From: Desulfobacterium sp.
GTDB lineage: Bacteria; Desulfobacterota; Desulfobacteria; Desulfobacterales; Desulfobacteraceae
NCBI GenBank assembly: GCA_016342325.1
Contig: JAEINR010000064.1
Coordinates: forward strand, 1-35,556
Direction: 5' to 3'
Length of the DNA: 35,556 nt
In this document: positions 4,828-32,573 of the stretch, one piece after another
How the letters are laid out: each line of letters starts with the position of its first letter
Numbering within the stretch: position 1 is the first letter of the stretch
Position numbers and translations under genes: made by a program
Notes under the pieces: generated by a model
Databases searched by the model: none
Told to the model about the DNA's origin: nothing
What the model saw: only the letters and a program-made list of their open reading frames with translations

Positions 4828-6301
4828 AGAGTCCTATATACTTTTCAGCACAGGTTGTGTGGTTGAATTCAAGAACACCCTCGGTCATTATCCGCCGGAT
4901 CTGCTCCTCCTTGATCCGGGGGGACAGTTTAAAAAATGCCATGGCCTGGTCAACGGCCCATGAAAGTGCATTTGCATCGTGGACGTTGAAGAGAAACCCG
5001 TTGCCCTTGTCCCCATCGGGCTCAAGCTGCCTCACGGTATCATGGAGACCGCCTGTGTCAAACACAATGGGAAGAGTGCCGTAGATACACCCGGTCATCT
5101 GGGGAAGGCCACAGGGTTCGAAACGGGAGGGCATGAAAAGGAAATCAGCCCCTGCAAAAGCCTGGTGGGAGAGACTCTCACTGAAATCGTTCACGCTCAT
5201 CCGGTTTCTGATGCCATGGAAGTCGACGATGTCGTTAAAGTGTTTCTGATACTCTCCGTTTGCGACAAAGACCATCTGGAGATTATCCTCCTGGTATCGT
5301 TCAATGATATCATAGGCGATATCGGCCAGAAGCTGGCATCCCTTCTGGATCGGATCCAGGCGGGAGGGCCAGAAAAAAAGCGGTGCGTTCTCGTCCCGGT
5401 CAAGTTCCAGGGCATGCTGGAGGCATTCCTTGTTCAGCCGTTTCTTTTCCCGATGGTTTTTCGGGCCGTAGTTGTGGACAACCATCTCGTCAATGGCGGG
5501 ATTGAATTCCGGATCCGGGGCATTGAGCACCCCGTCTGCACACCCGGCATGCCATTTATTGGAGAGCTCCTGTCTCAGGCACGGCTCCACAAATGGATGG
5601 CGGTGCTCGATGATCTCCTGGAGAAAGGTGGGACTCACCGTGTTGACGTAGTGGGCCGCAAACACCCCCGAGGTCAAAAAATCCACCGGATTGGTATCCC
5701 TTGCGCCTTCGTAATTCCGGGGCGGGTTCCTGAAATAGAGATGTTTCCAAAAGGAGGCCGCATCAATGCCCCGGTCCTCGATCTCTGCCATGGTGGAGGT
5801 GACCGTGTGGATGTTGTGGACGGTAAACAGACAGGGGATCCCCATCTGTCTTGCCATGGAAGGCACAAGCCCCGTCATCCAGTCGTTGCAATGGATGATG
5901 TCCGGACGCACCCGGGGAATGATGTTGTTCATCACCTCCCGCTGAAAAGCCAGGGCCACCTTGAGGTTGGTGACGGAATAACCGGAATAGACATGGGTGA
6001 GGTAGTAAAAAGCCCTGTCTTCGGCAAGGTGGATCCGCTCGTCTTCCAACCGCTCCTTGATCCTGTCCAACTCCTTGTTGAAAAAATCGGGAAGATAACC
6101 GTTGATGATGGAACGGTAGTCGGGAAGGGCGACATGGACATCACCGCCCAGATCAAACAACGCCGAAATCAGGGCGGCCGAAACATCGGCAAGCCCCCCG
6201 GCCTTTGCAGAGTAGTTGGACATGTTGCCCATCTCCTCGGGAAGATAGGTTACTTCAGGGGTCACAATGAGAATACGGGGTTTTTTCCTTTGTGCTGTCA
6301 T
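4793..6301 (-). CDS. glgA: Glycogen synthase (GT5)
   Basis: This 502-residue protein elongates alpha-1,4 glucan from a nucleotide-sugar donor (ADP-glucose in bacteria). The N-terminal GT5 catalytic domain begins RILIVTPEVTY and has the donor/acceptor loop KAGGLADV at about 31-38. The C-terminal Rossmann domain has PSRLDPIQKG (about 314-323), the signature PSRFEPCGLPQM (about 391-402) and DTGGLHDTV. Length and order fit a complete enzyme. A ribosome site AAGGACAAGGGA precedes the ATG at 6301. It follows glgP after 18 bases and overlaps glgB, so it is the third gene of the glycogen operon. No glgC for ADP-glucose synthesis is in the window. Confidence 0.93.
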   Translation of the reverse strand: MTAQRKKPRILIVTPEVTYLPEEMGNMSNYSAKAGGLADVSAALISALFDLGGDVHVALPDYRSIINGYLPDFFNKELDRIKERLEDERIHLAEDRAFYYLTHVYSGYSVTNLKVALAFQREVMNNIIPRVRPDIIHCNDWMTGLVPSMARQMGIPCLFTVHNIHTVTSTMAEIEDRGIDAASFWKHLYFRNPPRNYEGARDTNPVDFLTSGVFAAHYVNTVSPTFLQEIIEHRHPFVEPCLRQELSNKWHAGCADGVLNAPDPEFNPAIDEMVVHNYGPKNHREKKRLNKECLQHALELDRDENAPLFFWPSRLDPIQKGCQLLADIAYDIIERYQEDNLQMVFVANGEYQKHFNDIVDFHGIRNRMSVNDFSESLSHQAFAGADFLFMPSRFEPCGLPQMTGCIYGTLPIVFDTGGLHDTVRQLEPDGDKGNGFLFNVHDANALSWAVDQAMAFFKLSPRIKEEQIRRIMTEGVLEFNHTTCAEKYIGLYERMLQRPFFV

Positions 6302-6319
6302 TCCCTTGTCCTTTCTCCA

Positions 6320-8875
6320 TCAACCCGCCCAGGTCATCAGTCCCGGGCTTGCCTTGAGAATCTCGTCCCCCTGGGGGATCACCCTTGCCGTGTAGCCGAA
6401 CCTGCCCGCATCAAAACAGGTGAGGGAGCAGGCGTAAACACAGGTGTTGCCTTCAAACCGCTCCTTCAATTCCATGGTCTGTATCCGTCCGCCCTTGAGC
6501 CGGGAAAGGGATCGAAGCCTTCCGTAATAGATCTGCACCTCCACCTCCCCGGGTTCAAGCTCGCCGAGGCACACCTTGACGGTGATCCCGAAGGTGTCAC
6601 CGGCCCGGAACCCGTTGCCGGAAACGATTGAGGGCTTTTCAACCCGGACATCCTTCCACAGGCTGGTAAGCCGCTTCTTTGCCATGGCAAGACCGGTTGC
6701 CGCCCTGGCACCGTCGGCCGTCAGCCGCCCCATGTTGATGGAGGCCGGAACATAGAAGCGATCCGTATACTCCTTGACCATCCGGTTGCTGGAAAAATCC
6801 AGGAGGGCCATCTTCATGGACGCCTTCATCATCTCGATCCACCCCAGGGGCGCATTCCCCGGCTTTCTGTCATAAAAGCGGGGAATCACATCGTTCTCCA
6901 GTAGATTGTAGAGCGCCTGGCTCTCCACCGAATCCTGGTAGGCCTCGTCCTGAAAATCGCAGCTGTCTCCAATGGCCCATCCCCTGTCCGGGGCGTATCC
7001 CTCACACCACCACCCGTCCAGGATACTCAGGTTGAGGCTGCCGTTCACGGCCGCCTTCATGCCCGAGGTGCCGCAGGCCTCGTTGGGGCGCCTGGGAGTG
7101 TTGAGCCATACGTCGGCCCCCTGGACCATGTACCGGGCGATGTTAATGTCGTAGTCCTCGAGAAAGACGACCCTGTGCCTCACCTCGTCCCGTTTGGCAA
7201 AGTTCATGATCCGCTGGATGATATGCTTTCCCTGGTTGTCGTTGGGATGGGCCTTTCCTGCAAAGACAAACTGTATGGGCCGGGTCTCGGAATTGATCAG
7301 GGCCTCGAGCCTGTCCGGATTTTTCAACAAAAGATCGGCCCGCTTGTAAGTGGCAAAACGCCTGGCAAAGCAGATGGTCAGCACATTGTTGTCCAGCACC
7401 GAGGATACGGCATCAAGAACGTGCCTCGGGGCGCTCCTTGCCGAGTATTTATCCAGCATAATCTTCCGGCACTGGCGGATGAGGCGGGACCGATCGATGC
7501 CATGCACATGCCATAGGTCCTCGTCATCGATGTTGTCGATTCTTTGGACCAGATCCGGGCCGTAGTGGAGGTCTCCCCAGTCCGTTGCAAGATAGCGATC
7601 AAACAGGGCCGCCTTTTGCTGGGAAATGTAAGAAAGGATGTGAACCCCGTTGGTGATGTGGGAAATGGGCACCTCTTCCTCGGGCCGTTCGGGCCAGATC
7701 CCGGTCCACATTTCCCGGGCCACACTGCCGTGGAGACGGCTCACCCCGTTCAAGTAGCCAGCAAGGTTCATTCCAAGGACGCACATATAGAAGCAAGGAT
7801 CCTGTTCATCATCGGATTTCATCTGCCCCCACAGGAGGAGGTCATCCCCGGGCATGTCAAATTGTTCGGCAAAGGGTTTAAGATAGGGCTTCACCAGGGC
7901 GGGAGGAAATTCATCATGGCCTGCGGCAACCGGGGTGTGGGTGGTGAAGACACTGCTTCGTTTGCTGATCTCCCAGGCAGCAACCGCGTCCACTGAAAAC
8001 TTTTTCATGATCTGGACAATTCTCTCAAGCCCTGCAAACGAGCAGTGCCCCTCGTTCATGTGAATCACGGCAGGAAAGATATCCAGCCGCTCAAGGACCC
8101 GCATCCCTCCGATGCCAAGGAGGGCCTCCTGGGCAATCCGGGTCTCCAGGTTACTCGAGTAGAGCCGCTGGGTGATGTCACGGATAAAGGGACTGTTCTC
8201 CCGCATATTGGTGTCCAGGAGAAGCAACCTCAGCCGCCCCACCTTGATCTGCCAAACCTGGGCCAGGATTATGCCGTGGGGGCTTTCTACCCGGACAACG
8301 ATCTTGTCGCCCAGATTGTCCCTGGCCTGCTGAACCGGCAGATCAAAGATATCGATCTCAGGATAGGTCTCCTGCTGCCACCCCTCAAGGTCAAACACCT
8401 GGCTGAAGTAGCCCCCCCGGAACAGGAGTCCCACCCCGGTAAGGGGGATGCCGAGGGAGGAGGCCGCCTTGAGGTGATCCCCGGCAAGCACCCCAAGTCC
8501 GCCGGCAAAGAGCGGAAGGGATTCATGGATCCCGAACTCCATGGAGAAATATGCAATGGTCTCCCGGGAGCCTATGTTCAGGTTGTCAAATCCCGGGGCA
8601 AAGGAGAACATGGCCTCGAACCTGGCCTTGACCCGCTCCATGTGCCCGATAAACCCGTCATCAAAAGTCAGCTCCTCATACCGTCTCTGGGAGATGGACG
8701 CCAGAAAGGCCACGGGATTTCGTTTTTTCGTTTCCCATTGAACCGGGTTGATCCTCCTGAAAAGCTCGACGGCATCATAGTTCCAGCACCACCAGAGATT
8801 TTTGGAAAGATAATCAAGAAACAAAAGGGGCTCGGGAATTGATGGATACACCTTGAAAACCTGCAAATTTTCCAT
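6320..8875 (-). CDS. glgP: Alpha-glucan (glycogen) phosphorylase, DUF3417 type
   Basis: This protein of about 851 residues releases glucose-1-phosphate from alpha-1,4 glucan using pyridoxal phosphate. An N-terminal DUF3417-like segment (YLSKNLWWCWNYDA) precedes the GT35 catalytic core. The core has SMEFGIHESLP, THTPVAAGHDEFP, FARRFATYKRADLLL and the PLP lysine region CGTSGMKAAVNG near residue 606. It belongs to the shorter phosphorylase group seen in many bacteria and archaea, not the E. coli GlgP/MalP group. I chose ATG 8875: an AAGGAG lies 6 bases before it, whereas it directly abuts ATG 8881. The gene then follows the debranching enzyme stop by 2 bases. It is the second gene of the glycogen operon. 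Confidence 0.93.
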   Translation of the reverse strand: MENLQVFKVYPSIPEPLLFLDYLSKNLWWCWNYDAVELFRRINPVQWETKKRNPVAFLASISQRRYEELTFDDGFIGHMERVKARFEAMFSFAPGFDNLNIGSRETIAYFSMEFGIHESLPLFAGGLGVLAGDHLKAASSLGIPLTGVGLLFRGGYFSQVFDLEGWQQETYPEIDIFDLPVQQARDNLGDKIVVRVESPHGIILAQVWQIKVGRLRLLLLDTNMRENSPFIRDITQRLYSSNLETRIAQEALLGIGGMRVLERLDIFPAVIHMNEGHCSFAGLERIVQIMKKFSVDAVAAWEISKRSSVFTTHTPVAAGHDEFPPALVKPYLKPFAEQFDMPGDDLLLWGQMKSDDEQDPCFYMCVLGMNLAGYLNGVSRLHGSVAREMWTGIWPERPEEEVPISHITNGVHILSYISQQKAALFDRYLATDWGDLHYGPDLVQRIDNIDDEDLWHVHGIDRSRLIRQCRKIMLDKYSARSAPRHVLDAVSSVLDNNVLTICFARRFATYKRADLLLKNPDRLEALINSETRPIQFVFAGKAHPNDNQGKHIIQRIMNFAKRDEVRHRVVFLEDYDINIARYMVQGADVWLNTPRRPNEACGTSGMKAAVNGSLNLSILDGWWCEGYAPDRGWAIGDSCDFQDEAYQDSVESQALYNLLENDVIPRFYDRKPGNAPLGWIEMMKASMKMALLDFSSNRMVKEYTDRFYVPASINMGRLTADGARAATGLAMAKKRLTSLWKDVRVEKPSIVSGNGFRAGDTFGITVKVCLGELEPGEVEVQIYYGRLRSLSRLKGGRIQTMELKERFEGNTCVYACSLTCFDAGRFGYTARVIPQGDEILKASPGLMTWAG

Positions 8876-8877
8876 GA

Positions 8878-11800
8878 TCATCTCCTTGTTGTAAGCTTAA
8901 GCCACACCCGAAGAAGCTCGCTGGACCCCCAGGCCTGGGCATCGCATCCCCTTGCAAGGTGGGGCGCATCACCATCCAGGATTTCCGGTACAAAACCGGC
9001 AGCCCCCTTTTCCATGATCTTGAGACTGCTCTTGAGCCATGATATCCCGGTGGCAGCCCCGGGAGGGCCGAACACCACGGCCCAGGCTTCGCAAAAAACC
9101 GGAAATACCCAGGTCCAGGCGGTACCGTTGTGGTAGGCAGGTTTTCTCTCCCGATCCTCGTTCCCGGTGTAATGCCCGGAATAGGGATGGTGGGGATCTT
9201 TTAACGGCCCGTTCTCCCCCTGGATGACAAGGGGATGACAAACCTTCCCGTCGTCAAGGGTGCGTATGGCGCCGGGCACCAGAAGCGCCATGCATTTTTC
9301 AAGGGCCGGAATGCATCGTTTCTCGTCCCGGACCGCACCCAGGGCGATCAGAAAAAGCTGATTGGGCCTTAGGGCATCATCGGCCACAGCTGTTGCAGCA
9401 GGCATCATTTCCGGGCTATGGAGACAATCGGAAAAATATCCCTTGTTTTTCAGAAAAAAGAGGTGTTGAACCGACGCTTCCACCCGGTGAGCCAGCGCTT
9501 TCCAGGGGTGGTGCCGGTCCCCATCGATTCCTGCGAGAAACACCAGGGCGTAATGCCACAGGGCCTGGATCTCCACCGGATACCCCTGCCTCGGGGTACC
9601 GGCAGGATAGTTGGTATCCATCCAGGTGAAGTGGGAAGGACTGTAAACAAGGGCACTTTCCCTGTCCATTTGAATACCGGTATCTGTCCCACGGATATAG
9701 GCATCACCAATGGAAACGAGGATCTGCCGGATGGTTCGATCACCTAAAAATTCATCCAGGAATGCCTTGCCCTGCTGTTCGACAATGTCTCTGACTGCGG
9801 CAACAAACCAGAGGGGGGCATCCGAGGTCTCCCGGTTGGCCGCATCACTGCCGCAGATCATGTTGGGAAGGGTACCGTTTTGTTCAAACCGCCCAAAGAG
9901 CCTCAGGATTTTCCTGGCCTCTTCCAGGCGGCCTGCCTGGATCAGGGCCCGGCAAAAGATGAGGCTGTCCCGGCCCCAGTCCAGGAACCAGGGGTAACCT
10001 GCAATCACACTTTTATCGTCCCCCCTGCCCACCACAAAGGTGGTCAGGCTCTTCATCAGTGCCTCGGTCAACGGCCACCCCCTGGCAAAATCCATGGAAC
10101 GGTCATTGTGGCCGGTGTAGGCGTTGACCCTGGATTCGACCCGGTTCTCGTTGACATCGGCGGCCAGAAGGATGGCGGAGTTGCCCTTAAGGGGTGCAAT
10201 GAAATAGCCCGGGCTGAAAAGGTCTGATTCAGAATCAAGACCCCGCTGGGCATCCAGGGGTCGGTGTACCATGTACTGCCACTCGGGTTCCCAGACAAAG
10301 CTGCCAAGGGAAACCCCGACTCTCAACGAACAATGATCGGGCTCAGGGGCAAATACAAACCCGTTTGTCACCATGGTGACCGCCTCCTTCCAGTGCTTCT
10401 CCGGCCCCTGCCAGGCCTTGACGGTCTCGTGGAAACTGCGGTATTCCATGTCAGGCCGGATAATGACGGTCACCGGCTTTGAATCGTCCAGAAGATGGTC
10501 CCGGTGGCCGGCGGTGGGTCTTGAAATGGTCAGCTCCAGGGAATTTTTATCCTCGATCATCTTGAGGGTAAGCTCGACCAGACAATGGTTACCTTCGCTT
10601 GTGGGTACCCGGAACCGCCAAATACCAGCGTTGTCGTAGGAGAAAATGAAACGATCCAGGCAATCCAGACAAAGTTCCCTTGAGTAACCCTGGAAGGTCA
10701 CCCATATCCTGCAACGGGCAAGGGCCATCCACCGGTCCTCAGGATAATCAGGGTTGATGTTTGCGGCAAGCAAAGCGTCATAGCGGCTCTCAAGCCTTCC
10801 CCACCAGGCAAAGGCCCGCATCATACCTCCCCGGTGATTCACCCCCAATAATTTCAAGGAGGGGTCCTTTGCAATGGCCTTTCTTGTGGATACGGACGAA
10901 ACAAAGGCCGAACCCGCCCCGGGCAGGTAGACCAGGGTGGCGATGGCCTCCCGAGTTCCCTTGGATGCAAAGACCCGGAGTTTCAAAATATATTCCCGTA
11001 TTCGTCCCTTGGTGTCCATGGGAAGAAAAATGGCAAAAAAACCACCGTCCGCCATGGCAAGGGCCTCTTCCTGGCCCAGGGTCGTGGCGTTGTTCCCGTT
11101 TTGGGTTCTGATCTCTGCCCTGAATGTATCAGGCGCCGTAACCATCAGTAAAAAACCGTGGGGCACCATGACCTGCCGCCCCACGTCCCGCTCCCATTGC
11201 CACACAACCACCCGGCTTTCGTTACCGTCCGGATTGACAGAGCGTACAAACGCCACAGGATCGCCAATAAGGCGTTGTGCAGCCCCTTTAAGATCCATGC
11301 CGGAGACATCCCCGTACCCGGTAAGGGCAGTAACGATTTTCAACACCTTGGCCCTTTGCTTCTGGAAGACCACCCGTTCCGGCATCCCCAGGTTCTGCAC
11401 GTCTGCCTTTCTGAGACCCGGGACATCATCCTTGTCCCGGGTCAGGGCGACCACCTCGCCGGGCATGAGCTCAAGCCGGCAGAGGCCGTCCTGTTGCCGG
11501 ACAAGGACCTTCCTCTCCGTGACCAGATCAAACATGGGGCCCTGGGCCGGACCACCGGCTGTCCAGGCAACCTCCTGGGCCTTGTCACAGTCAAGGTTGG
11601 CCAGCACCACGACCTCTTTATCTTCCCCTGGTTTTTCCCCTATAACCGCCCGGGACAGGGCCACGCAATTGGTCGTCCCCTGGTGCACCAGGCGTAGGCA
11701 GACGTTGCTTGCAAAGGCGGGATGGGTCTTGAGAATCAGGTTGAGCCTGCGGATATGGTCGGTCTGGTTGACCTTGGCACCCCAGTTCAGGGAAACGGAT

Positions 11801-13197
11801 TCGTGGACGTCGATCTTCCGGGTGGCAAACCACTCCACCCCGTTTGTAAAACCAAATCCCCCGCACACGGAGAAGAGCGCACAAAGGGAGGTCCGCATCA
11901 CGGCGTAGTCATGGGAGACGGCAGCCAGACGCGGGTTGTCATGGGTCTCGGCAAAGTGGATCATGTGGCCGAAGCGTTCGGAGATATCCATGGCAGAAGG
12001 GAGATAGGTTTCCAATGCCTGACGGTCATAGTTCTGGAACAGCTCGGAATAGGCCCAGTTGAAGTTGGCCCGGTCCAGGATATCCCGGGTGGCCGCAACC
12101 GGTCCCCCCAACCCCTCAAGGAAAAAGAGGGTATCCGGATACTCCTGCTTCACCCGTGCCACCATATACTCCCAGGCCGGCACGGGAATCATGTACCCGG
12201 CATCGCACCGGAACCCGTCCACCCCACGGCTGCACCAGAGGAGAAAAATGTCGGCCATATACCGCCACAACGCCTTTTTTGAGTAGTCGAGCCGGGTCAG
12301 GTCCTCCCATTGAACCCCCCAGGCTCCCGGCACCTGGATTTCTCCCTCCTCGCTCCTGACCAGCCACTCCGGATGGCGTTCATGGATGGAGGCGGCCCAT
12401 CCGGTGTGGTTGATGGCGATATCAAGAATCAGGTAGCCGGAACAGGAATGAATCCTGTCCACAAGCTCCGTGAACTGCTCCAAGGGCGTGGCCCCAGGAT
12501 CGAACTCGGCCAGGGCGGGATCCACATCGGTGAAGTTCAAGGCGGCATAGGGGCTGCCGAACCGCCCCATTCTGGCATAGGTGGTGGGGGTCGGATGGAT
12601 GGGAAGCAGGTGAATTGCCCGGCACCCTAAATGGGACAGAATATAGTCGACCTCGGCTTTAAGATCCCTGAACGTCCCTGAACAGGGAATCACGGAGTAC
12701 TTTTTTTTATCCAGGGCTTTGATCCAGCGGGCTTCCTCCTCCCCCTCCGGCAGGGCGGCGGCACACTTGGTGGGACCGAACTGCCGCACAAATGCATTGT
12801 AGACAATGTTGGCACAGCAGGAGCCCGCAGGCTCCACATTGATGACACAATTCTCCCCGGGAGGCCACACCGGAGCATCGCTGTCATCTGCGAAAAAAAA
12901 GCATTTTGCTTTAAAATGACCCGTCTCCCACAGGGGCAGGGTAATGGAAAACGTTGTCGGATCAAAGCGAACCATTTGGATATCGTGCCACGCTTCGTTG
13001 AGCTTGATTTCGTTGCGGTCGACCCTTGCGATGATCTCGCCCCTTGCAACGGTTGCCCTGCCAAGGTTTGTCCTGATCCACGCCATCCCTTCGACCGTGG
13101 AAGGCACCTTGAGGGTAAAGGTGACCACATCCCCGCAGAACATCACCTTGGATGTCCCGGGTGTGGGGTGCTGAAAAATCATATCCGACACTTTCAT
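8878..13197 (-). CDS. Bifunctional glycogen debranching enzyme (GH13 + GDE_C)
   Basis: This 1439-residue protein appears to carry both debranching steps. A GH13-like glucanotransferase half shows LDIAINHTG (about 254-262), nucleophile GVDGFRCDAG (about Asp330), acid/base FFLEGLGG (about Glu359) and AETHDNPRL (about 418), so the catalytic triad seems intact. Residues about 800-950 resemble a GDE N-terminal domain. The C-terminal amylo-alpha-1,6-glucosidase half has WFLDWGRDSL (about 1073), GTPRQGYPVEIQALW (about 1200) and NGTAWTW (about 1358). The order matches eukaryotic AGL-type debranching enzymes. A TAGGGT site precedes the ATG. It is the first gene of the glycogen operon. Confidence 0.88.
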   Translation of the reverse strand: MKVSDMIFQHPTPGTSKVMFCGDVVTFTLKVPSTVEGMAWIRTNLGRATVARGEIIARVDRNEIKLNEAWHDIQMVRFDPTTFSITLPLWETGHFKAKCFFFADDSDAPVWPPGENCVINVEPAGSCCANIVYNAFVRQFGPTKCAAALPEGEEEARWIKALDKKKYSVIPCSGTFRDLKAEVDYILSHLGCRAIHLLPIHPTPTTYARMGRFGSPYAALNFTDVDPALAEFDPGATPLEQFTELVDRIHSCSGYLILDIAINHTGWAASIHERHPEWLVRSEEGEIQVPGAWGVQWEDLTRLDYSKKALWRYMADIFLLWCSRGVDGFRCDAGYMIPVPAWEYMVARVKQEYPDTLFFLEGLGGPVAATRDILDRANFNWAYSELFQNYDRQALETYLPSAMDISERFGHMIHFAETHDNPRLAAVSHDYAVMRTSLCALFSVCGGFGFTNGVEWFATRKIDVHESVSLNWGAKVNQTDHIRRLNLILKTHPAFASNVCLRLVHQGTTNCVALSRAVIGEKPGEDKEVVVLANLDCDKAQEVAWTAGGPAQGPMFDLVTERKVLVRQQDGLCRLELMPGEVVALTRDKDDVPGLRKADVQNLGMPERVVFQKQRAKVLKIVTALTGYGDVSGMDLKGAAQRLIGDPVAFVRSVNPDGNESRVVVWQWERDVGRQVMVPHGFLLMVTAPDTFRAEIRTQNGNNATTLGQEEALAMADGGFFAIFLPMDTKGRIREYILKLRVFASKGTREAIATLVYLPGAGSAFVSSVSTRKAIAKDPSLKLLGVNHRGGMMRAFAWWGRLESRYDALLAANINPDYPEDRWMALARCRIWVTFQGYSRELCLDCLDRFIFSYDNAGIWRFRVPTSEGNHCLVELTLKMIEDKNSLELTISRPTAGHRDHLLDDSKPVTVIIRPDMEYRSFHETVKAWQGPEKHWKEAVTMVTNGFVFAPEPDHCSLRVGVSLGSFVWEPEWQYMVHRPLDAQRGLDSESDLFSPGYFIAPLKGNSAILLAADVNENRVESRVNAYTGHNDRSMDFARGWPLTEALMKSLTTFVVGRGDDKSVIAGYPWFLDWGRDSLIFCRALIQAGRLEEARKILRLFGRFEQNGTLPNMICGSDAANRETSDAPLWFVAAVRDIVEQQGKAFLDEFLGDRTIRQILVSIGDAYIRGTDTGIQMDRESALVYSPSHFTWMDTNYPAGTPRQGYPVEIQALWHYALVFLAGIDGDRHHPWKALAHRVEASVQHLFFLKNKGYFSDCLHSPEMMPAATAVADDALRPNQLFLIALGAVRDEKRCIPALEKCMALLVPGAIRTLDDGKVCHPLVIQGENGPLKDPHHPYSGHYTGNEDRERKPAYHNGTAWTWVFPVFCEAWAVVFGPPGAATGISWLKSSLKIMEKGAAGFVPEILDGDAPHLARGCDAQAWGSSELLRVWLKLTTRR

Positions 13198-23501: not shown

Positions 23502-23555
23502 GGGTCATTTCCTTACATGATTTTTTAAATGCTGTTTAAACGATCCAGCGTACTG

Positions 23556-23585
23556 ATATTACCATATTTCCTAATTGACTGTTAA
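23556..23585 (-). promoter_or_regulatory. Possible pruA promoter
   Basis: Read on the minus strand, TTAACA (23585-23580) and TAATAT (23561-23556) are 18 bases apart, about 55 bases before the dehydrogenase start. The -10 box is a moderate match. Confidence 0.35.
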
Positions 23586-23782
23586 AGCTGATACCACTCT
23601 CGTTTCCGACCTGTCAACCGAATCATACCCTTTTTTCTGTGGAACCCACAAAAACATAGGTTATAAGTAGTAATTCGGATCAATATTTGCGGTCAATATA
23701 CAAATTAACACAGATTATTACGGACCACCATGACAATTAAAAAAATCATCTTTTCACCACGATAGTGCCGGTTAAATGACGT

Positions 23783-23842
23783 GATACCAACCCACCGTTA
23801 TTAATAAGTAGCGGTATCAATTGGTCTGACCAGAGCTATAAT
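23783..23842 (+). promoter_or_regulatory. Candidate control region for the lipid synthase operon
   Basis: A TATAAT at 23837-23842 is preceded by the palindrome TGGTC-T-GACCA (23822-23832) and by a larger dyad, GATACC (23783-23788) with GGTATC (23813-23818), that surrounds the perfect palindrome TTATTAATAA (23798-23807). No good -35 box is visible, which fits an activator- or repressor-controlled promoter. Confidence 0.35.
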
Positions 23843-23872
23843 ATCCGGCTTGGCCATTCGAACCAGAAACAG

Positions 23873-24005
23873 GCCTTCAGCCAGGATTGAAGGCTTTTAC
23901 AGAAGTTTTACAAACAAAACAGGTGTCGAAACACCGTTCATAACCGCCTGTTTTACCACTCTTTTACCTCCCGGTTCCCGGATCGCGTTTTCGCAAAAAC
24001 CGGGA
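23873..24005 (+). promoter_or_regulatory. Three-hairpin leader before the lipid synthase gene
   Basis: Three inverted repeats follow each other. GCCTTCA/TGAAGGC (23873-23894) is followed by TTTT and looks like a short intrinsic terminator. AAAACAGG/CCTGTTTT (23916-23954) contains the inner hairpin GGTGT-CGAA-ACACC. TCCCGGTT/AACCGGGA (23969-24005) contains GCG-TTTT-CGC. If transcribed, this would be a folded leader and possibly an attenuator. Confidence 0.4.
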
Positions 24006-24058
24006 CGAAACAGAGTTCCCCTTGTAATAAATCCCTTTCTCAATTATATGACGCAGTT

Positions 24059-27000
24059 ATGAAACGTACAACAGGCAACATCGCCGTAACCGGAATTGCC
24101 GGCATATTTCCAGGCGCCCACACCATTGAAAAGTTTACGGAGAACATCATGGCCGGCCACGAAGCCATCATGGATGTTCCCGAACACCGATGGATCGTCC
24201 CCCCGGACACCATGGTCTCAGACCAGTACCAACCTGACACGGCCGCGTCGAAACGGGCGGGACTGGTGGACAATTTCCCCTTTGACCCCGATGGTTTCAT
24301 CCTTGACCGGGATCTTCTTTCAGGACTCGACCCCCTGCACAAGATGGTACTCCACGCAGGAAGACAGGCCCTGTCAAACTGCTTCCACGATCAAAATATC
24401 CGGGAGAAAACCGGCGTTATCCTTGCGGCCATCAGTCTGCCCACCCAGGCCTCGTCCGAGATCTCCCACAGAATCGTGATGGGCGATCCCCGGGCCGTCA
24501 CCCGGGCCGATGCCCTTGCAGCCGGCGTGGTATCGGTCCCGGCAGCCCTGTTGGCACGGGCCATGGGCTTTTTCGGGGGATGCTTTACCCTGGACGCGGC
24601 CTGCGCCTCCTCCCTTTACGCCATCAAGCTGGCCTGTGACCGCCTCAACTCGGGCAGGGCAGACATGATGGTTACGGGCGGTGTGTCCCGGCCGGACGCC
24701 CTCTACACCCAGGTGGGATTCACCCAGCTCAAAGCCCTTTCACCCACCGGACGCTGCGCCCCGTTTGACAAGAGTGCCAACGGCCTGGTGGTGGGCGAAG
24801 GGTCGGGCATCCTTGTGCTGAAACGCCTGGAAGACGCCGTTGCCTGCGGGGACAAGATCTGGGGCGTCATCCAGGGAGCAGGATGGTCCAACGACATCGA
24901 GGGCAACCTGGTGGCTCCGGCCTCCGAGGGCCAGAGACGCGCCATGGCTGCCGCCTTTAAAAACGCGGGCTGGCTGCCCAAAGAGATCCAGCACCTGGAG
25001 TGCCACGGTTCTGCCACCCCTGTGGGGGACAACATCGAACTGAACTCCATGAAGACCCTGTGGCAGGAAGCGGGCTGCGACCAGGCCCCCTGTGCCATCG
25101 GATCCGTGAAATCCATGACCGGGCATCTGCTGACGGCGGCAGGAGCTGCCGGCATGATCAAGACCCTGGTGGCCATGGATGCAAAACGCCTACCCCCCTC
25201 CCTTAATTTTTCCGAGCCCACGGCCAACAGTCCCCTTTACACCACCGGGTTCAAAGTTCAGACAACGGCTTGCCCTTGGGACGCCAAGGTTCGCCGGGCC
25301 GGGGTGTCCGCCTTTGGGTTCGGCGGCATCAACGGCCATATCCTGGTAGAAGAGTTCACGCCCGGCAACCCCAGCCACCATTTCCAGCCAGGTCTTGCCA
25401 AAAAGGAACCCTCCCCAGATATTCCCATCGCCATTGTGGGCATGGAGACCATCACGGCAACCGCTCCCAACCTGGCCGAGTTCAAGGCGCAGGTCCTGGG
25501 CGGAAAAAAACCGACACCCAGGGCGCCTGGATCAAGATGGCGGATATCAGCGGACACCACCCCATCTTTTCCGACCATTAACGGCCTGTGGATCAATTCC
25601 GTGACCACCCGGCCGGGGGAATTTCACATTCCACCCAACCAGATTCCGGACCTGCTGCCCCAGCACCTGATCATGCTCAAGGCGGCAACCAACGCCCTCA
25701 AGGATGCGGACATTGCTGTCAGGCCCGGAAAGAACGAGCCACCCCGCACCCGGTTCGGGGCCGCCGTCGGCATTGAGTTTGACTATGAGGCAACGGATTT
25801 CCACCTTCGATGGCGCAACAACCAGGCAGACGAGACCGTGAAAGATGCCCTGGCCCCTCCCCTCACGGCCAACAGAACCCTGGGAGCCCTTGGGGGAATC
25901 GTGGCAAGCAGGCTCGCCCGGGAGTTCAAGCTGGGAGGCCCCTGCTTTACCGTATCGGCCGGGGCGGCATCGGGCATGAAGGCCATTGGGGCGGGAATCC
26001 AATCCGTGAGATCCGGGGAGACCGACACCTTTTTGTGCGGCGCCGTGGACATGGCCGGGGATTGTCGCCAGATCATTCTGGACGCCTGTTTAAAACCGTT
26101 CTCCAACAAGGCCGTTCCCTTTGACAAAACCGCTAAAGGCGCCCTCCCCTCCGAAGGCGCTGCTGCCGTGGTACTGAAACGGCTTGACCTGGCCCAAAAG
26201 GACGGCAACCGGATCTACGGTATCATCAAAGGCACCGGGGAAGCCTCCGGTGGCGAGATGGCCCATGAAGGAAACGCTCTACAGCCGGACATGGAAAAAC
26301 GCTATGGGGCCTCCCTTGAACAATGCCTGGACAATGCCGGGGTCTCCGCCCCTTCCATCGGCCTGTTCGAGGCCCATGCCAGCGCAGATCCAATGGAGGA
26401 CGCAACCGAACTTGCGGCCCTGGCCCGCTTTGACCTCTCCTGCGCCCTTGGGTCTGCGTCAGCCACCAACGGCAACACCCGATCCGTGTCAGGCCTTCTC
26501 TCCATGGTAAAGGCCTCCCTTGCCCTGTACCACCACATCATTCCCCCGGTTCCCGGCTTTGTTGCCCCGGGAATCGAGCTCCCGGTCGAAACCCATCTCC
26601 ACATCCCCCAAGCGCCCAGTTTCTGGGTCCGAAAAAAGGATGATGAACCGCGACGGGCCTGTGTCGGTACCATGACCCGGGACGGGGCCGTAAGCCACCT
26701 GGTCCTGGAAGAGTTTGCCCGAAACCAGGGGTCACCCATTTCAGACCGTATAAAAGCCGAACGCCTCAATCCCCTGGGCAACCAACAAACCGCCCTGTTT
26801 GTGGTCAAGGCCGATTCCAAAGCAAGCCTCCTGGCTCAACTGGAACAGCTCAAAGCCCTCACCCGCACCATGGCCGAAAAACCAGCCGCCGCCATTGGCC
26901 ACGCCTGGTTCCGGACCACCGTGCAGCAAACCAGTCAAGGCCCGACCCTGTCCATCATGGCAGCCAATGCCAACAGCCTTGCAAATTTTGTAGATGGCGC

Positions 27001-29821
27001 AGTGGAAGCGGTGACAAAGGACAGGGCGTGCACCATAAAAGGGTTTGAGGGCATTGCATACACCCTTTCACCCCTGGGTACAAAGGGCAGAACCGCCTTT
27101 CTCTATCCCGGTTCAGGCAACCACTTCCCGGGCATGGGACAAGCCATGGGCGCCCTGTTCCCGGAGATCCTCGATGCCATGGAAGAAAAGGGCGCCTCCC
27201 TTGACAAGCAGGTACAGCCGGCCCTCTACTACCCCCAGCGCCTCAACTGGGAGGCCGGGTGGCAGAACCATGCCATGGACAAGATCACGTCCCATGCCCA
27301 CAATATGATCTACGGCCAGGTATTTTTCGGCAACCTCATGACCCGGGTGGCGGAGAAATTCAACCTACGGCCCCAGGCCGGTATCGGCCACAGCCTCGGC
27401 GAGACCACCTCCCTGTTTTCCCTTGGGGTCTGGAACGATCCAAAGGAGATGCTCAACCGCATGGAGGCATCCGATCTCTTCACCCAAAAGCTTGCCGGTG
27501 ATTTCACGGCAGCTGCCACGGTGTGGAATCTGGCAGCCGGGGAGACGCCTCAATGGCGCGTTGCGGCCGTGAACCGAAACCGTTCGGCGGTGGAAGCGGA
27601 ACTAAAACACCACGACCGGCTCTATCTCCTCATCGTCAACACCCCCAATGAGACCGTGATCGGCGGCAGCCCGGACCAAATGGAAACCTTTGTCAAGAAC
27701 ACCGGGTGCGGCGCCATGTTCCTGGACGGTGTCGTCACCGTACACTGCCCGGTGGCAGAGCCGTGCAAACAAGAATACCTTGACCTCCACAGGTTCCCGT
27801 GCACCCCGCCCCCTGATATCGACTTCTACTCCTGCAGCCGGGCCCAACGGTATACCCCGGAAACCGAGGCAACGGCCCACTCCATCCTGGACCAGGCCCT
27901 TACCGGGTTTGATTATGTAAAGCTGATTAACCAGGCCTGGGATGACGGCATCCGGATATTTGTTGAAATGGGCCCGGGCGCATCCTGCACCCGGGCGGTG
28001 AAACAAATTCTCAAGGAAAAGGAGCACCTGGTGCTGTCCTTGTCCGAAATCCGGGGGAACGACCATGGGGTTCTTTTAAAAGGCCTTGCAACCCTGGCTG
28101 CCCACGGCCTGGATTTGGATCTTGCCCCGTTGTATCCCCTTGACAAGGAGAAAACAGGTGAACCGGCCGCCCATGAACTGACCCTTACCACGGGCAGATC
28201 AACCATGGATTCACAGGTGATTGCAGGCAATGACGGGCCAGTTAAAAAGGCAAAACCACTGAATACCGTTGCTAAGAAAAGCCCTGTAAAAACACCCATG
28301 GCCGATGATAAAAAGCAAAAAACACCGCCCACAAAATCGTTTGCCGAAACCAACGACCGCCCCCCTGGCACAGAATCTAATGCAACGCCCATGGACTCAG
28401 CCCGCTTGACGGCCCGGGCCCATGAATCCTTTTTGGCCATGACCCAGGATAACATGAAGGCCTATGAAACCCAGTTTGCAGCCCTTACCCGGGCAGCGGC
28501 AGGGGGTGGCGGGTCCCAGGAAACGGTGCCGGTACAAGCCTCCCAGGCAACCATGGGTGTGCACGACTCCCAGGCCACCGCGCCTGCACAGGGAAATAAC
28601 GACAATAAGCTAGGCCTGACCCCACTGTTTGACCGAAAGATGTGCATGGAGTTTGCCACGGGCCTGGCAGGCAATGTCCTTGGCGATCCATTCAAGATCA
28701 TCGACACCTATCCCGTACGGGTGAGACTTCCGGATGAACCCTTGATGCTGGTGGACAGGATCATGGATATCCAGGGAGAGATGCTCTCTTTAACCAAAGG
28801 AAAGATCGTCACCCAGCACGATGTCAAGCCGTCTGCCTGGTACCTGGACGGCGGCAAGGCGCCGGTCTCCATCACCATCGAAGCGGGCCAGGCGGATCTC
28901 TTCCTCTGCTCCTGGCTCGGCATCGACCATGTTGTCAAGGGCAAACGGCGGTATCGCCTCCTGGATGCAAGGGTCACCTTCCACCGGGATCTTCCCCGGC
29001 CCGGCGAAACCATCGAGTACCACATCGAGATCGACCGGTTCCTCAAACAGGGGGATGTATACCTCTTCTTTTTCCACTACGAGGGCTACATCAACGATGA
29101 GCTCCTCATCTCCATGCGGGACGGATGCGCAGGATTCTTCACCCTGGACGAGGTCGCCAACTCCGGGGGAATCATCCTGAAACCAGAAGACAAGGAAAGG
29201 GTAACACCCAAAGCCCCCTTTGTTCCCCCCATCCCGGTCACCCGGGAGCGCTATTCCGATGCACGGATTGCGGCCCTTCGCCAAGGGGACCTTGAAACCG
29301 GTTTTGGAAACAGGTTCAAGGGAATGAAGCTCGGAAAGCACCTGCGCCTTCCAGGGGAGCGGATGCACCTTCTGGACCGGGTGACCGACATTGATCCCTT
29401 CGGCGGCAGGTTCGGCCTGGGTGTCATCACTGCCGAAGCCGACATTCGACCGGATCACTGGTTTCTCACTTGCCACTTTACCGATGACATGGTAATGCCG
29501 GGAACCCTGATGTATGAATGCTGCGCCCACACCCTGAGGATATTTACCCAGAGAATGGGATGGGTGTCGGACAGGGATGATGTGCATTACGATGTCATCC
29601 CGGGAATAGAGAGTGACCTTAAGTGCCGGGGCCCTGTGACAGTGGACACAAAAAAGGCCGGGTATGAGATAGAGATAAAAGAGATGGGGTATGGGCCCGA
29701 ACCCTATGTGATTGCCGACGCCCACATGTTTTCGGACAACCACAGGATCATCCTTTACAAGAATATGGGATTGAAAATTGCGGGACTCTCCCGCCAAGAA
29801 ATTGAAAGGATCTGGAGCTAA
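24059..29821 (+). CDS. Pfa-like multidomain lipid synthase (KS-CLF-AT-pseudoDH-DH)
   Basis: This 1920-residue megasynthase resembles PfaC/HglE-type polyunsaturated or secondary lipid synthases. KS1 has the active Cys in LDAACASSL (about 182), ECHGSATPVGD and KSMTGH. A second KS at about 460-870 has SAGAASG where Cys should be, so it is a chain-length-factor-like domain. The acyltransferase has GIGHSLGE (about Ser1111) and VTVHCPVAEP. A Lys/Thr/Gln-rich linker spans about 1380-1540. Two hot-dog domains follow: the first (WYLDGGKAPVS, about 1594) lacks the catalytic His, the second has HFTDDMVMPG (about 1806). No phosphopantetheine site, KR or ER is visible. KS-CLF-AT recalls thraustochytrid PUFA synthase subunit B. 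The ribosome site is weak. It heads an operon with oleA- and oleB-like genes. Confidence 0.9.
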   Translation: MKRTTGNIAVTGIAGIFPGAHTIEKFTENIMAGHEAIMDVPEHRWIVPPDTMVSDQYQPDTAASKRAGLVDNFPFDPDGFILDRDLLSGLDPLHKMVLHAGRQALSNCFHDQNIREKTGVILAAISLPTQASSEISHRIVMGDPRAVTRADALAAGVVSVPAALLARAMGFFGGCFTLDAACASSLYAIKLACDRLNSGRADMMVTGGVSRPDALYTQVGFTQLKALSPTGRCAPFDKSANGLVVGEGSGILVLKRLEDAVACGDKIWGVIQGAGWSNDIEGNLVAPASEGQRRAMAAAFKNAGWLPKEIQHLECHGSATPVGDNIELNSMKTLWQEAGCDQAPCAIGSVKSMTGHLLTAAGAAGMIKTLVAMDAKRLPPSLNFSEPTANSPLYTTGFKVQTTACPWDAKVRRAGVSAFGFGGINGHILVEEFTPGNPSHHFQPGLAKKEPSPDIPIAIVGMETITATAPNLAEFKAQVLGGKKPTPRAPGSRWRISADTTPSFPTINGLWINSVTTRPGEFHIPPNQIPDLLPQHLIMLKAATNALKDADIAVRPGKNEPPRTRFGAAVGIEFDYEATDFHLRWRNNQADETVKDALAPPLTANRTLGALGGIVASRLAREFKLGGPCFTVSAGAASGMKAIGAGIQSVRSGETDTFLCGAVDMAGDCRQIILDACLKPFSNKAVPFDKTAKGALPSEGAAAVVLKRLDLAQKDGNRIYGIIKGTGEASGGEMAHEGNALQPDMEKRYGASLEQCLDNAGVSAPSIGLFEAHASADPMEDATELAALARFDLSCALGSASATNGNTRSVSGLLSMVKASLALYHHIIPPVPGFVAPGIELPVETHLHIPQAPSFWVRKKDDEPRRACVGTMTRDGAVSHLVLEEFARNQGSPISDRIKAERLNPLGNQQTALFVVKADSKASLLAQLEQLKALTRTMAEKPAAAIGHAWFRTTVQQTSQGPTLSIMAANANSLANFVDGAVEAVTKDRACTIKGFEGIAYTLSPLGTKGRTAFLYPGSGNHFPGMGQAMGALFPEILDAMEEKGASLDKQVQPALYYPQRLNWEAGWQNHAMDKITSHAHNMIYGQVFFGNLMTRVAEKFNLRPQAGIGHSLGETTSLFSLGVWNDPKEMLNRMEASDLFTQKLAGDFTAAATVWNLAAGETPQWRVAAVNRNRSAVEAELKHHDRLYLLIVNTPNETVIGGSPDQMETFVKNTGCGAMFLDGVVTVHCPVAEPCKQEYLDLHRFPCTPPPDIDFYSCSRAQRYTPETEATAHSILDQALTGFDYVKLINQAWDDGIRIFVEMGPGASCTRAVKQILKEKEHLVLSLSEIRGNDHGVLLKGLATLAAHGLDLDLAPLYPLDKEKTGEPAAHELTLTTGRSTMDSQVIAGNDGPVKKAKPLNTVAKKSPVKTPMADDKKQKTPPTKSFAETNDRPPGTESNATPMDSARLTARAHESFLAMTQDNMKAYETQFAALTRAAAGGGGSQETVPVQASQATMGVHDSQATAPAQGNNDNKLGLTPLFDRKMCMEFATGLAGNVLGDPFKIIDTYPVRVRLPDEPLMLVDRIMDIQGEMLSLTKGKIVTQHDVKPSAWYLDGGKAPVSITIEAGQADLFLCSWLGIDHVVKGKRRYRLLDARVTFHRDLPRPGETIEYHIEIDRFLKQGDVYLFFFHYEGYINDELLISMRDGCAGFFTLDEVANSGGIILKPEDKERVTPKAPFVPPIPVTRERYSDARIAALRQGDLETGFGNRFKGMKLGKHLRLPGERMHLLDRVTDIDPFGGRFGLGVITAEADIRPDHWFLTCHFTDDMVMPGTLMYECCAHTLRIFTQRMGWVSDRDDVHYDVIPGIESDLKCRGPVTVDTKKAGYEIEIKEMGYGPEPYVIADAHMFSDNHRIILYKNMGLKIAGLSRQEIERIWS

Positions 29822-29827
29822 CGCGAC

Positions 29828-30880
29828 ATGAGATACTCAAAGGTATTTATCGATACAATTGGTTATGAACTTGCCCCCCACGTGGTCACAACGGACGAGC
29901 TCGAGACGAGGCTTGCGCCCTTTTACGACGCGGTTGGCTTTGGAGAAGGACAACTGCTGGCCCTGACCGGCATCAAAGAGCGGCGGTACTGGGATGTGGA
30001 GCACACCCTGGCCCAGGGGGCTGCCAAGGCCGGGAAAAAAGCCATCGAGGCCGCTGGCATCACCCCGGACCAGGTGGAAAGCGTTGTGTTCTGCGGTGTT
30101 GGCAGGGACGGGTTTGAACCGGCCACGGCCTGTGCCGTGGCAGACGCACTCAAGGTCAGCCCCCAAGCCCATGTATATGATGTTTCAAACGCCTGCCTCG
30201 GCGTCATCTCCGGCATGGTCCAGGTGGCCAATGAGATCGAGCTCGGCCACATCAAGGCGGGTCTGGTGGTTTCCTGCGAGACGGCTCGCCAGATCGTGGA
30301 CGCAACCATTGATGAGATCAACCAGAATAAGAGCATCGATTTCTACAAAAAAACCATTGCAACCATGACAGGGGGATCCGGCGCCTGCGCCGTTCTGCTC
30401 ACCGACGGCACCCTTGGCAACGACACCGTACAGCGCCACGCCCTCAAGGGCGGGGTGGTCAAACAGGCCAACCAGTTCCACGACATGTGTCGCTGGACCT
30501 TTGAGGAGGCGGGCATGCCCACCCACTCCCGGGTCATCATGCGCACCGATGCCCACGGGGTACTTGAAAACGGCCTGACCCTTGCAAAGGAAACCTTTGC
30601 GCTGTTCAAGAAAGAGCTGAACCTGCCCCAGGGCAAGCCGGACAAGTTCATCTGCCACCAGGTGGGTTCCACCCACCAGCAGCTTTTCCACAGGGCCATC
30701 GGCATTGACAAGGAAAAGGATTACGCCACCTTTCCCTTTCTCGGCAACATCGGAACGGTCTCCCTTCCCATTACAGCGGCCATTGCCGATGAACGGGGCT
30801 TTCTACAGCCCGGTGACTATGTGGGATTCCTCGGTATCGGTTCAGGACTTAACTGTCTCATGATGGGGGTAGAATGGTAA
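29828..30880 (+). CDS. oleA: OleA-like thiolase-fold acyl condensing enzyme
   Basis: This 350-residue thiolase-fold protein resembles OleA, which condenses two fatty acyl-CoAs head to head, and more distantly FabH. The catalytic set is Cys123 (VSNACLG), His277 (ICHQVGS) and Asn307 (FLGNIGT). Glu97 in GFEPATA lies 26 residues before Cys123, the same spacing as Glu117 and Cys143 of Xanthomonas OleA as I recall it; that Glu is the base specific to OleA. The ending GIGSGLNCLMMGVEW also matches OleA closely. It starts 6 bases after the synthase gene, so the synthase product is a possible substrate. A FabH-like role is less likely given Glu97 and the oleB neighbour. Confidence 0.85.
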   Translation: MRYSKVFIDTIGYELAPHVVTTDELETRLAPFYDAVGFGEGQLLALTGIKERRYWDVEHTLAQGAAKAGKKAIEAAGITPDQVESVVFCGVGRDGFEPATACAVADALKVSPQAHVYDVSNACLGVISGMVQVANEIELGHIKAGLVVSCETARQIVDATIDEINQNKSIDFYKKTIATMTGGSGACAVLLTDGTLGNDTVQRHALKGGVVKQANQFHDMCRWTFEEAGMPTHSRVIMRTDAHGVLENGLTLAKETFALFKKELNLPQGKPDKFICHQVGSTHQQLFHRAIGIDKEKDYATFPFLGNIGTVSLPITAAIADERGFLQPGDYVGFLGIGSGLNCLMMGVEW

Positions 30881-31797
30881 CAAGAACGATCAACAACACG
30901 GCAACCAGCACCAACGGCTTTGACCACCTCTACCCCTTTGACGGAAATTTCCTGACCGTCAACGGCCATGCTCTCCACTACCTGGACGAGGGAAAAGGCA
31001 ACCCCGTGGTCATGGTCCACGGCAACCCCACCTGGTCCTTTTATTTCAGGCGCCTTGTCACGGATCTCTCCGTGGACCACCGGGTGATCGTGCCGGACCA
31101 TATTGGGTGCGGCCTGTCGGACAAGCCGTCAGCCAAAAACTACCCCTACACCCTTGAACAGCGGGTCAGCGACCTTGACGCCCTGATCAAAAGCCTGGAT
31201 CTTAAAGAAAAAATCACCCTCATCGTCCACGACTGGGGGGGCATGATCGGCTCTGCCTGGGCCCTTGATAACCTGGATCGAATTGACAAGATCGTTGTGA
31301 CCAACACGGCAGGCTTCCACCTGCCAAAGGAAAAACGGTTTCCCCTGCGGCTCTGGCTGCTCAAGTATCTGAGGCTGTTCGCCGTTCCCGCAGTGCTGGG
31401 CCTGAACGTCTTTTCAAGGGCGGCCCTGTACATGGCGCCCAGAAAGCCCCTTTCCAAGGAGGTTAAAAAGGGGCTCACCGCCCCCTACAACTCCTGGAAG
31501 AACCGGATCGCCACCCTGCGGTTTGTCCAGGACATCCCCCTCTGCCCTGAAGATACAAGCTACGATCTGGTCAACCGGGTGGACACCCAGCTCAACCGCC
31601 TTGGGAACCGGCCGATGATGATCCTCTGGGGAAAACACGATTTTGTCTTTGACATCCCGTTCCTGGACGAATGGAAACGCAGGTTCCCCAAGGCCAAGCT
31701 CCATTTATTTGAGGATGCAGGCCACTATCTCTTTGAGGATAAACCCGACGAAACGTCGGACCTTATCAAGGCGTTTCTTGTAAACGACGAAGCCTAG
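30874..31797 (+). CDS. oleB: OleB-like alpha/beta hydrolase (beta-lactone decarboxylase)
   Basis: This 307-residue alpha/beta hydrolase is of the haloalkane-dehalogenase group. It has VMVHGNPTWSFYFR (oxyanion region, 47-60), nucleophile Asp120 in IVHDWGG, a probable acid Asp256 in WGKHD and His284 in DAGHYLFED. In known olefin pathways OleB converts the beta-lactone made by OleC into a cis-olefin and CO2. Its start overlaps the oleA stop by 7 bases (ATGGTAA), which makes joint function likely. OleC and OleD are not found downstream: the next gene is an elongation factor. A haloalkane dehalogenase cannot be excluded from sequence alone, but the oleA overlap argues for OleB. Confidence 0.82.
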   Translation: MVTRTINNTATSTNGFDHLYPFDGNFLTVNGHALHYLDEGKGNPVVMVHGNPTWSFYFRRLVTDLSVDHRVIVPDHIGCGLSDKPSAKNYPYTLEQRVSDLDALIKSLDLKEKITLIVHDWGGMIGSAWALDNLDRIDKIVVTNTAGFHLPKEKRFPLRLWLLKYLRLFAVPAVLGLNVFSRAALYMAPRKPLSKEVKKGLTAPYNSWKNRIATLRFVQDIPLCPEDTSYDLVNRVDTQLNRLGNRPMMILWGKHDFVFDIPFLDEWKRRFPKAKLHLFEDAGHYLFEDKPDETSDLIKAFLVNDEA

Positions 31798-32006: not shown

Positions 32007-32573
32007 ATGCCCAAGGCGTGTGATTTGAAAAAAGGGAACGTTGTGGAGGTAAACAACGAACCTTACATGGTTAAGCATATCGATGTGAAATCTCCATCGG
32101 CAAGGGGGGCTGCCACCCTTTATAAGGTCAGATTCAACAATGTCAGGACCAAACAGAAACTGGAAGAGACCTATAAGGGAAATGACTTTCTCAATGAGGT
32201 AGACCTCCTGAAAAGGCCAGTACAATATCTCTACCCCGACGGAAATCTCCATGTGTTCATGGACAGCGAAGAGTATTCCCAATACATGATCTCCGAAGAT
32301 GCCATTGAAGATGAAATGGTTTGGCTCTCAGACGGTATGGAAGGCCTTGTTGCCCTGATCATCGATGAAAGCATGGTATCCATTGAAATACCCAATACCC
32401 TTGTGTTTGAAGTGCTTGAAACCGCTCCCGGGATCAAGGGAGCAAGTGCATCGGCACGGACCAAGCCCGCAACCCTTTCAAACGGCGTTGAGATACAGAT
32501 CCCGGAATATCTTGAGCCCGGCGAGATGATCAAGGTCAATACGGAAACAAAGAAATACATGTCCAAGGCTTGA
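32007..32573 (+). CDS. efpL: Elongation factor P-like protein, YeiP/EfpL type
   Basis: This 188-residue protein is a full-length member of the EF-P family, which helps ribosomes through stalling motifs such as proline runs. It has the N-terminal KOW-like domain, the tip loop SPSARGAATLYK with Arg33 at the position that in EF-P carries the modified Lys34, two OB domains, and the ending APGIKGASASARTKPATLS then QIPEYLEPGE. The Arg33 loop and ETAPGIKGASASAR mark the YeiP/EfpL subgroup, which does not need EpmA-type modification. A good AGGAG stands 8 bases before the ATG. It is separated from oleB by 209 bases and probably has its own promoter near the palindrome. Confidence 0.93.
   Translation: MPKACDLKKGNVVEVNNEPYMVKHIDVKSPSARGAATLYKVRFNNVRTKQKLEETYKGNDFLNEVDLLKRPVQYLYPDGNLHVFMDSEEYSQYMISEDAIEDEMVWLSDGMEGLVALIIDESMVSIEIPNTLVFEVLETAPGIKGASASARTKPATLSNGVEIQIPEYLEPGEMIKVNTETKKYMSKA

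Follow-up and report, generated by a model that had tools for sequence, protein, structure and literature searches.

A PfaBC-type synthase gene adjoining oleA and oleB in Desulfobacterium sp., with a conserved gene order and a predicted route to long-chain polyenes

We analyzed a 35,556-nucleotide stretch of DNA from Desulfobacterium sp. (assembly GCA_016342325.1, contig JAEINR010000064.1; hereafter the window), which is an entire contig (C204) of a 6.67 Mb genome, and found in it three adjoining genes that couple a synthase of the polyunsaturated fatty acid (PUFA) type to homologues of OleA and OleB. All three are open frames on the plus strand: a pfaBC-type synthase gene (24059–29821, 1920 aa), oleA (29828–30880, 350 aa), and an oleB homologue (30874–31797, 307 aa). 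The TAA stop codon of the synthase gene (29819–29821) is followed by a 6-base gap and then by the ATG of oleA at 29828, and the ATG of oleB at 30874 gives a 7-base overlap with the end of oleA. A preliminary description of this DNA had proposed the same layout, which proved exact to the base.

Searches with Pfam and NCBIfam models found two ketoacyl synthase (KS) domains, one acyltransferase (AT) domain, and FabA-family matches in the synthase, and the PfaA and PfaB models matched it partially, with scores under their cut-offs. The first KS domain (approximate limits 24077–25378) contains a cysteine within DAACASS (residues 179–185) and keeps both histidines. The second (approximate limits 25424–26713) reads VSAGAASG at residues 632–639; the active-site cysteine is missing, and so this domain resembles a chain length factor (CLF). 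The AT domain (approximate limits 27071–28153) is of the PfaB family and carries the motif GHSLGE at residues 1110–1115. A pseudo-dehydratase–dehydratase (psiDH-DH) didomain occupies positions 28619–29803: its first hotdog, WYLDGGKAPVSITIEAGQ (residues 1594–1611), lacks the histidine, and the second has the CHF..E motif, as CHF..LMYEC. We read these motifs, and those in OleA and OleB, in their usual functional sense. The domains and motifs bear out the KS-CLF-AT-psiDH-DH architecture suggested in the preliminary description, and the combination of KS, CLF, AT, and FabA-like DH is that of PfaB/C-type subunits in a Pfa-type PUFA synthase. Pfam found no ketoreductase (KR), acyl carrier protein (ACP), or enoyl reductase (ER) domain within the 1920 residues, and the synthase is therefore not expected to build a chain alone.

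The oleA product scored 450.3 bits (cut-off 285) against NF006720, which we take to be a KAS III-like model that covers OleA. Among solved structures, it aligned best, over the full length (E = 1e-52), with 3row and other entries that bear the name 3-oxoacyl-[ACP] synthase III, presumably structures of Xanthomonas OleA. The cysteine (NACLG), histidine (CHQVG), and asparagine (GNIG) that we assume to be the catalytic residues of OleA are in register with 3row. In addition, GRDGFEPATA (residues 92–101) aligns with SRDYLEPSTA of 3row and includes a Glu-Pro pair; the mechanism described for a glutamate at position 117 followed by proline has been called unique to OleA homologues (PMC7064751). We also considered a FabH-like role for this protein, in which it would start chains for a core fatty acid synthase, but the Glu-Pro pair and the presence of oleC and oleD speak otherwise. 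The oleB product is an alpha/beta hydrolase of the haloalkane-dehalogenase type, with the motif HDWGG, in an ole gene context.

Other parts of the two systems lie on other contigs of the same genome. Contig C81 encodes a PfaD (617 bits, cut-off 449) and a PfaA of 2730 aa that has a FabA domain and the architecture KS-AT-4xACP-KR-PS-DH and ends in a psiDH-DH didomain. The oleC gene is at C159:29809–31434 (71% to a protein above the NF006754 cut-off) and an oleD homologue is at C194:406–1392 (58% to a protein whose best matches are two OleD models), so that the Ole gene set of the genome is apparently complete. The NF006754 model (cut-off 478) gave 725 and 745 bits for OleC of two relatives that were scanned, and the models that came after it are those of olefin beta-lactone synthetase. 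The idea that the three genes of the window are sufficient as a pathway is not supported: KR, ACP, and ER (on PfaA and PfaD), OleC, and OleD are encoded elsewhere in the genome. A second, diverged ole-like set is present in one relative, G001 (L105, G001:C28; OleC 48%, OleD 35%, OleA 29%).

We then asked how the arrangement is distributed among 58 relatives, in which we defined close homologues at a visible gap in E-values (1e-113/4e-164 for the synthase and 4e-59/5e-109 for OleA). Both close genes were found in 52 relatives, the synthase only in two (G020 and G031, which are 87 and 89% complete), neither gene in four (G008, 70% complete; G039; G047; G054), and OleA only in none. In 43 of the 52, oleA lies downstream of the synthase gene on the same contig and strand, and in 32 of these 43 no more than 100 bases separate it from the last synthase match. 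OleC was matched in 54 of the 58 relatives (E = 1e-40) and OleD in 55 (E = 1e-30), a few of the matches being distant. In a scan of named genomes, the best 80 loci were kept; among the 70 with at least 3 kb of downstream sequence (the other 10 were left out), 48 had oleA within 3 kb of the synthase gene. The best 80 include Desulfobacter latus, D. vibrioformis, and Desulfospira joergensenii, in which the synthase gene, oleA, oleB, and oleC adjoin. In the relative loci that we examined, oleC is often 3' of oleB, and six loci from outside the family then have oleD next. The window links only pfaBC, oleA, and oleB; the full order of pfaD, pfaA, pfaBC, and ole genes is found in relatives. The pfaA and pfaD relatives come after the ole genes in G009 and G032, with one small frame between, and they are upstream of pfaBC in G037 and G048, with a few frames between. 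The distances of the synthase and OleA were correlated across 26 genomes (r = 0.84, with 0 of 2000 permutations as high), and we do not use this correlation as proof of coupling because common descent alone would give the same result.

Beyond the order Desulfobacterales, we sampled 198 genomes of the phylum, including that of the window, at a match level of 1e-40. The didomain was matched in 13 and OleA in 21. Eight of the genomes with the didomain are outside the order, and five of these have strong matches (585–591 bits) together with OleA. All five contain pfaD, pfaA, pfaBC, and oleA in a row, and oleB, oleC, and oleD then follow in order in three of them (G209, G233, G082). These five clusters may be linked to Geobacter, a connection drawn from gene order. 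In a KS-CLF tree, whose root was placed for drawing only, their synthases join those of the Desulfobacterales, apart from a second Pfa set of the window's genome that is described below. Four of the five clusters (G209, from L191:459 onward; G120; G082; G233) also have a frame of 227–246 aa directly after oleD, which is possibly a candidate PfaE (phosphopantetheinyl transferase).

Gene order was the first property by which the preliminary description had proposed to judge the coupling, and the synthase-ole order indeed recurs across the order and beyond it. This also bears on the reading that the synthase and ole genes are neighbors with no functional link. The 6-base spacing alone proves little, and the scan for regulatory sites was uninformative: promoter-like sites in the region were at chance level (3 seen, 3.4 expected), terminator-like sites numbered 17 (11.6 expected, SD 4.4), and we took neither type as evidence. 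A promoter would be expected in the intergenic stretch upstream of the synthase gene (23502–24058, no strand assigned). However, because the genes stand in this order across the Desulfobacterales and also in genomes from elsewhere, the arrangement is not due to chance; synteny already tells against a mere neighborhood, which we consider highly improbable.

The didomains are distributed differently between the subunits inside and outside the family. PfaBC has one psiDH-DH didomain in 16 of 16 family members and two in all 8 order-level genomes and all 5 from outside the order; the didomain of the window is the counterpart of the first of the two, and the second, at the end of PfaBC, is absent from the window's gene, and its relative instead ends PfaA. 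A C-terminal didomain was found on PfaA in 3 of 3 family members and in none of seven PfaA proteins from outside the family (two order-level and five outside the order), which gave at most a 33-residue match. The PfaA end of the window's genome is 47–56% identical to second didomains and 23–26% identical to first ones; for the family PfaA ends overall, the ranges are 43–56% and 22–27%. In a didomain tree, to be read with a warning about long branches, the PfaA ends group with the second didomains (support 97/97) and form their own branch inside that group (91/90). These sequences are most simply read as a transfer of the second didomain from PfaBC to PfaA, and it would follow that the two proteins belong to one synthase although their genes are unlinked here; the comparison thus suggests that PfaBC and PfaA form one enzyme. 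Such a move would be a natural domain swap that hints at which subunits cooperate. Ten of the 16 family PfaBC proteins, and one of the eight order-level PfaBC proteins, had no match to the AT segment. Eight of the ten family proteins form one clade (96/96), G004 falls outside that clade, and G006, a short gene that is also one of the ten, was left out of the KS-CLF tree.

The genome of the window (G000) encodes further synthases. A second Pfa set, on C17 (L070–L071, G000:C17), comprises PfaA-, PfaB-, PfaC-, and PfaD-like proteins of 2521, 782, 2431, and 547 aa and is also present in G001. This set could feed OleA, a point against the window's synthase as the source of its chains. Alternatively, OleA might draw on acyl-CoA pools, as it has been described with acyl-CoA substrates, with the window's synthase making another lipid in either case. 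We think that this is rather improbable: close OleA without the window-type synthase occurred in none of the 58 relatives, and OleA adjoins the window-type synthase and not genes of the C17 type, which G000 and G001 carry.

A different possibility is that the synthase of the window acts with the C81 proteins PfaA and PfaD mainly as the core fatty acid synthase for membrane lipids and that OleA is only a side branch. FabF above its cut-off was missing from 9 of 9 family genomes and present in 5 of 5 order-level genomes, and the family has few free-standing frames of FabZ size (among the matches listed, only in G022, with a fragment in G024). Desulfobacterium autotrophicum is described as lacking fabA and fabZ, and its Pfa-like cluster (Type S) was suggested to be a core synthase (PMC3098273). 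A better candidate for the core role, however, is a single synthase of 3877 aa (L072:7071–18704, G000:C7; ER-KS-KS-AT-KS-4xACP-KR-DH), which may be the primary fatty acid synthase of the family: a 1263 aa part of it had matches (1e-100) in 30 of the 35 family genomes and in 6 of the 23 from the rest of the order. Moreover, the five order-level genomes with FabF also keep the window-type synthase and close OleA, and the window's synthase gene sits with ole genes. A core role is accordingly one to which we give little weight.

Several known systems are similar to this one in part. The OleABCD system of Xanthomonas campestris shares full-length OleA homology and the Glu-Pro pair with the window's OleA, and it is not known to have an adjoining Pfa-type synthase. 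In Shewanella and Photobacterium, chains from a PUFA-type synthase are condensed by OleA, and PfaB and PfaC are separate proteins. The Pfa and Ole operons of these bacteria are described as apart or adjacent, depending on the host, and they are adjacent in Photobacterium profundum SS9 (PMC6463001). The Type I secondary lipid synthase cluster with ole genes (PMC3098273), as found in Geobacter bemidjiensis (PMC4882568), resembles the genes studied here in its PfaBC fusion, PfaA, PfaD, Ole set, and anaerobic hosts, and its gene order is the order seen in relatives. In the account of G. bemidjiensis, pfaD, A, B, C, oleA, B, C, D, and pfaE are in tandem, and the organism makes hentriacontanonaene (C31:9) (PMC4882568); in the proposal of Shulse and Allen (2011), olefin synthesis is supplied by Type I synthases (PMC3098273). 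Unlike Type I clusters, the window's genome has PfaA and PfaD, OleC, and OleD on other contigs and, when compared by description, has one didomain on PfaBC and the other on PfaA. Types C, K, and S are those of the related sulfate reducers Desulfatibacillum alkenivorans, Desulfococcus oleovorans, and Desulfobacterium autotrophicum; the account of Type C gives a pfaBC fusion with KS-CLF-AT-DH2, which by description is like the window's gene, and the passages on these three types show no tie to ole genes (PMC3098273).

Two statements of the preliminary description are not supported, namely, that known Pfa and Ole gene sets are separate, which the tandem genes of G. bemidjiensis and the adjacent operons of P. 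profundum SS9 contradict, and that the pathway may be undescribed, as the gene order published for G. bemidjiensis is also found in genomes outside the order. Publications already describe Pfa and Ole genes that are physically coupled, and the pairing is old and widely conserved. We found no report of oleABCD in Desulfobacterales in the open-licence literature that we searched. The modest new points are the near order-wide conservation in the sampled genomes, the dispersed state of the cluster in this genus, every part of which was found, the moved didomain, and a small operon protein described below.

By analogy with these systems, we consider it probable that the PUFA-type synthase feeds OleA and that the Ole enzymes yield a long polyene, with the three genes of the window being the core that has stayed linked from an ancestral cluster, pfaD-pfaA-pfaBC-oleABCD. 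PfaBC and the unlinked PfaA and PfaD (ER) of C81 would operate together as a single PUFA-type synthase, which works iteratively and yields a polyunsaturated chain bound to ACP, and OleA would carry out the head-to-head condensation of two of these chains. The condensation product would be reduced by OleD (C194), OleC (C159) would close a beta-lactone, and OleB would remove CO2 to leave a long-chain polyene. These steps of OleB, OleC, and OleD are those of the published Ole pathway. The product might be something like the hentriacontanonaene of G. bemidjiensis, and a polyunsaturated product of a Pfa-like synthase beside OleA and OleB, as first proposed for this locus, is likely. Our observations concern which genes and domains are present, their motifs, the conserved gene order, and where the didomains lie; from them we infer the joint action of the parts, each catalytic step, and the product, with its chain length and double bonds.

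The branch might instead stop early, with a polyunsaturated ketone as the end product. The oleC and oleD genes are outside the operon in this genus, and a 31:8 ketone was obtained in E. coli when Pfa was combined with OleA (PMC6463001). Against this, oleC and oleD homologues occur in this genome and in the relatives counted above, and oleB is retained beside oleA; we regard an early stop as unlikely.

Other observations weigh against a polyene pathway built on the window's synthase. The oleC, oleD, PfaA, and PfaD genes are unlinked to the window's genes in this genome, the synthase gene and oleA are on separate contigs in 9 of the 52 relatives that have both, and 22 of the 70 named loci from the best 80 lack oleA within 3 kb. 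Among these 22 are three Desulfamplus loci (L121, L124, L130) with 10 kb free of any ole gene, one (L158) with oleA at 3.2 kb, and others, such as L140, L153, L160 (Desulfosarcina alkanivorans), and L172 (D. cetonica), that keep oleB with oleA undetectable there. The Fisher probability for co-occurrence of the synthase and OleA (3.5e-5) ignores relatedness, and three of the six genomes without close oleA are only 70–89% complete. Outside the order, three genomes have a weak didomain match (370–377 bits) and no OleA, and 11 of the 16 that match OleA are without the didomain. OleB matched 21 NCBIfam models but reached the cut-off of none, and OleD of relatives reached 401 and 394 bits on two 2-alkyl-3-oxoalkanoate reductase models, for which the cut-off is 580. 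Finally, P. profundum SS9 is described as giving no detectable hydrocarbon despite its adjacent operons (PMC6463001), and adjacency is therefore no proof of production.

In eight family loci, a protein of 220–262 aa separates oleB from oleC (e.g., L055:18181–18855); in the genome of the window it is encoded at C159:34688–35296, some 3 kb from oleC. One member was scanned and had no Pfam or NCBIfam match at 0.001. By eye, the eight sequences have a lysine-rich start and one hydrophobic stretch. A more comprehensive proposal is that most Desulfobacterales make a polyunsaturated long-chain hydrocarbon or ketone (which need not be C31:9), with didomains redistributed between subunits, the AT segment absent from PfaBC in part of the family, and this unnamed ole-operon protein serving as a membrane holder; we offer this tentatively, as somewhat short of probable.

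Desulfobacterales are anaerobes that are important in sediments, and we predict polyene hydrocarbons, which could be biomarkers, in cultured strains such as Desulfobacter latus, D. vibrioformis, and Desulfospira joergensenii. A review considers the pfa genes of Desulfobacterium autotrophicum and others to be possibly remnants; the conserved, apparently complete Pfa-Ole set in the order points away from that view (PMC4882568).

Downstream of oleB, the window contains a gene for an EfpL-type elongation factor P (32007–32573), and an EfpL relative is the next gene after oleB in G001 and G002, two genomes of the same genus (85 and 76% identity, respectively). On the minus strand, positions 2794–13197 carry genes of the glycogen-metabolism type (alpha-amylase/CBM48, starch synthase, phosphorylase, and debranching enzyme).

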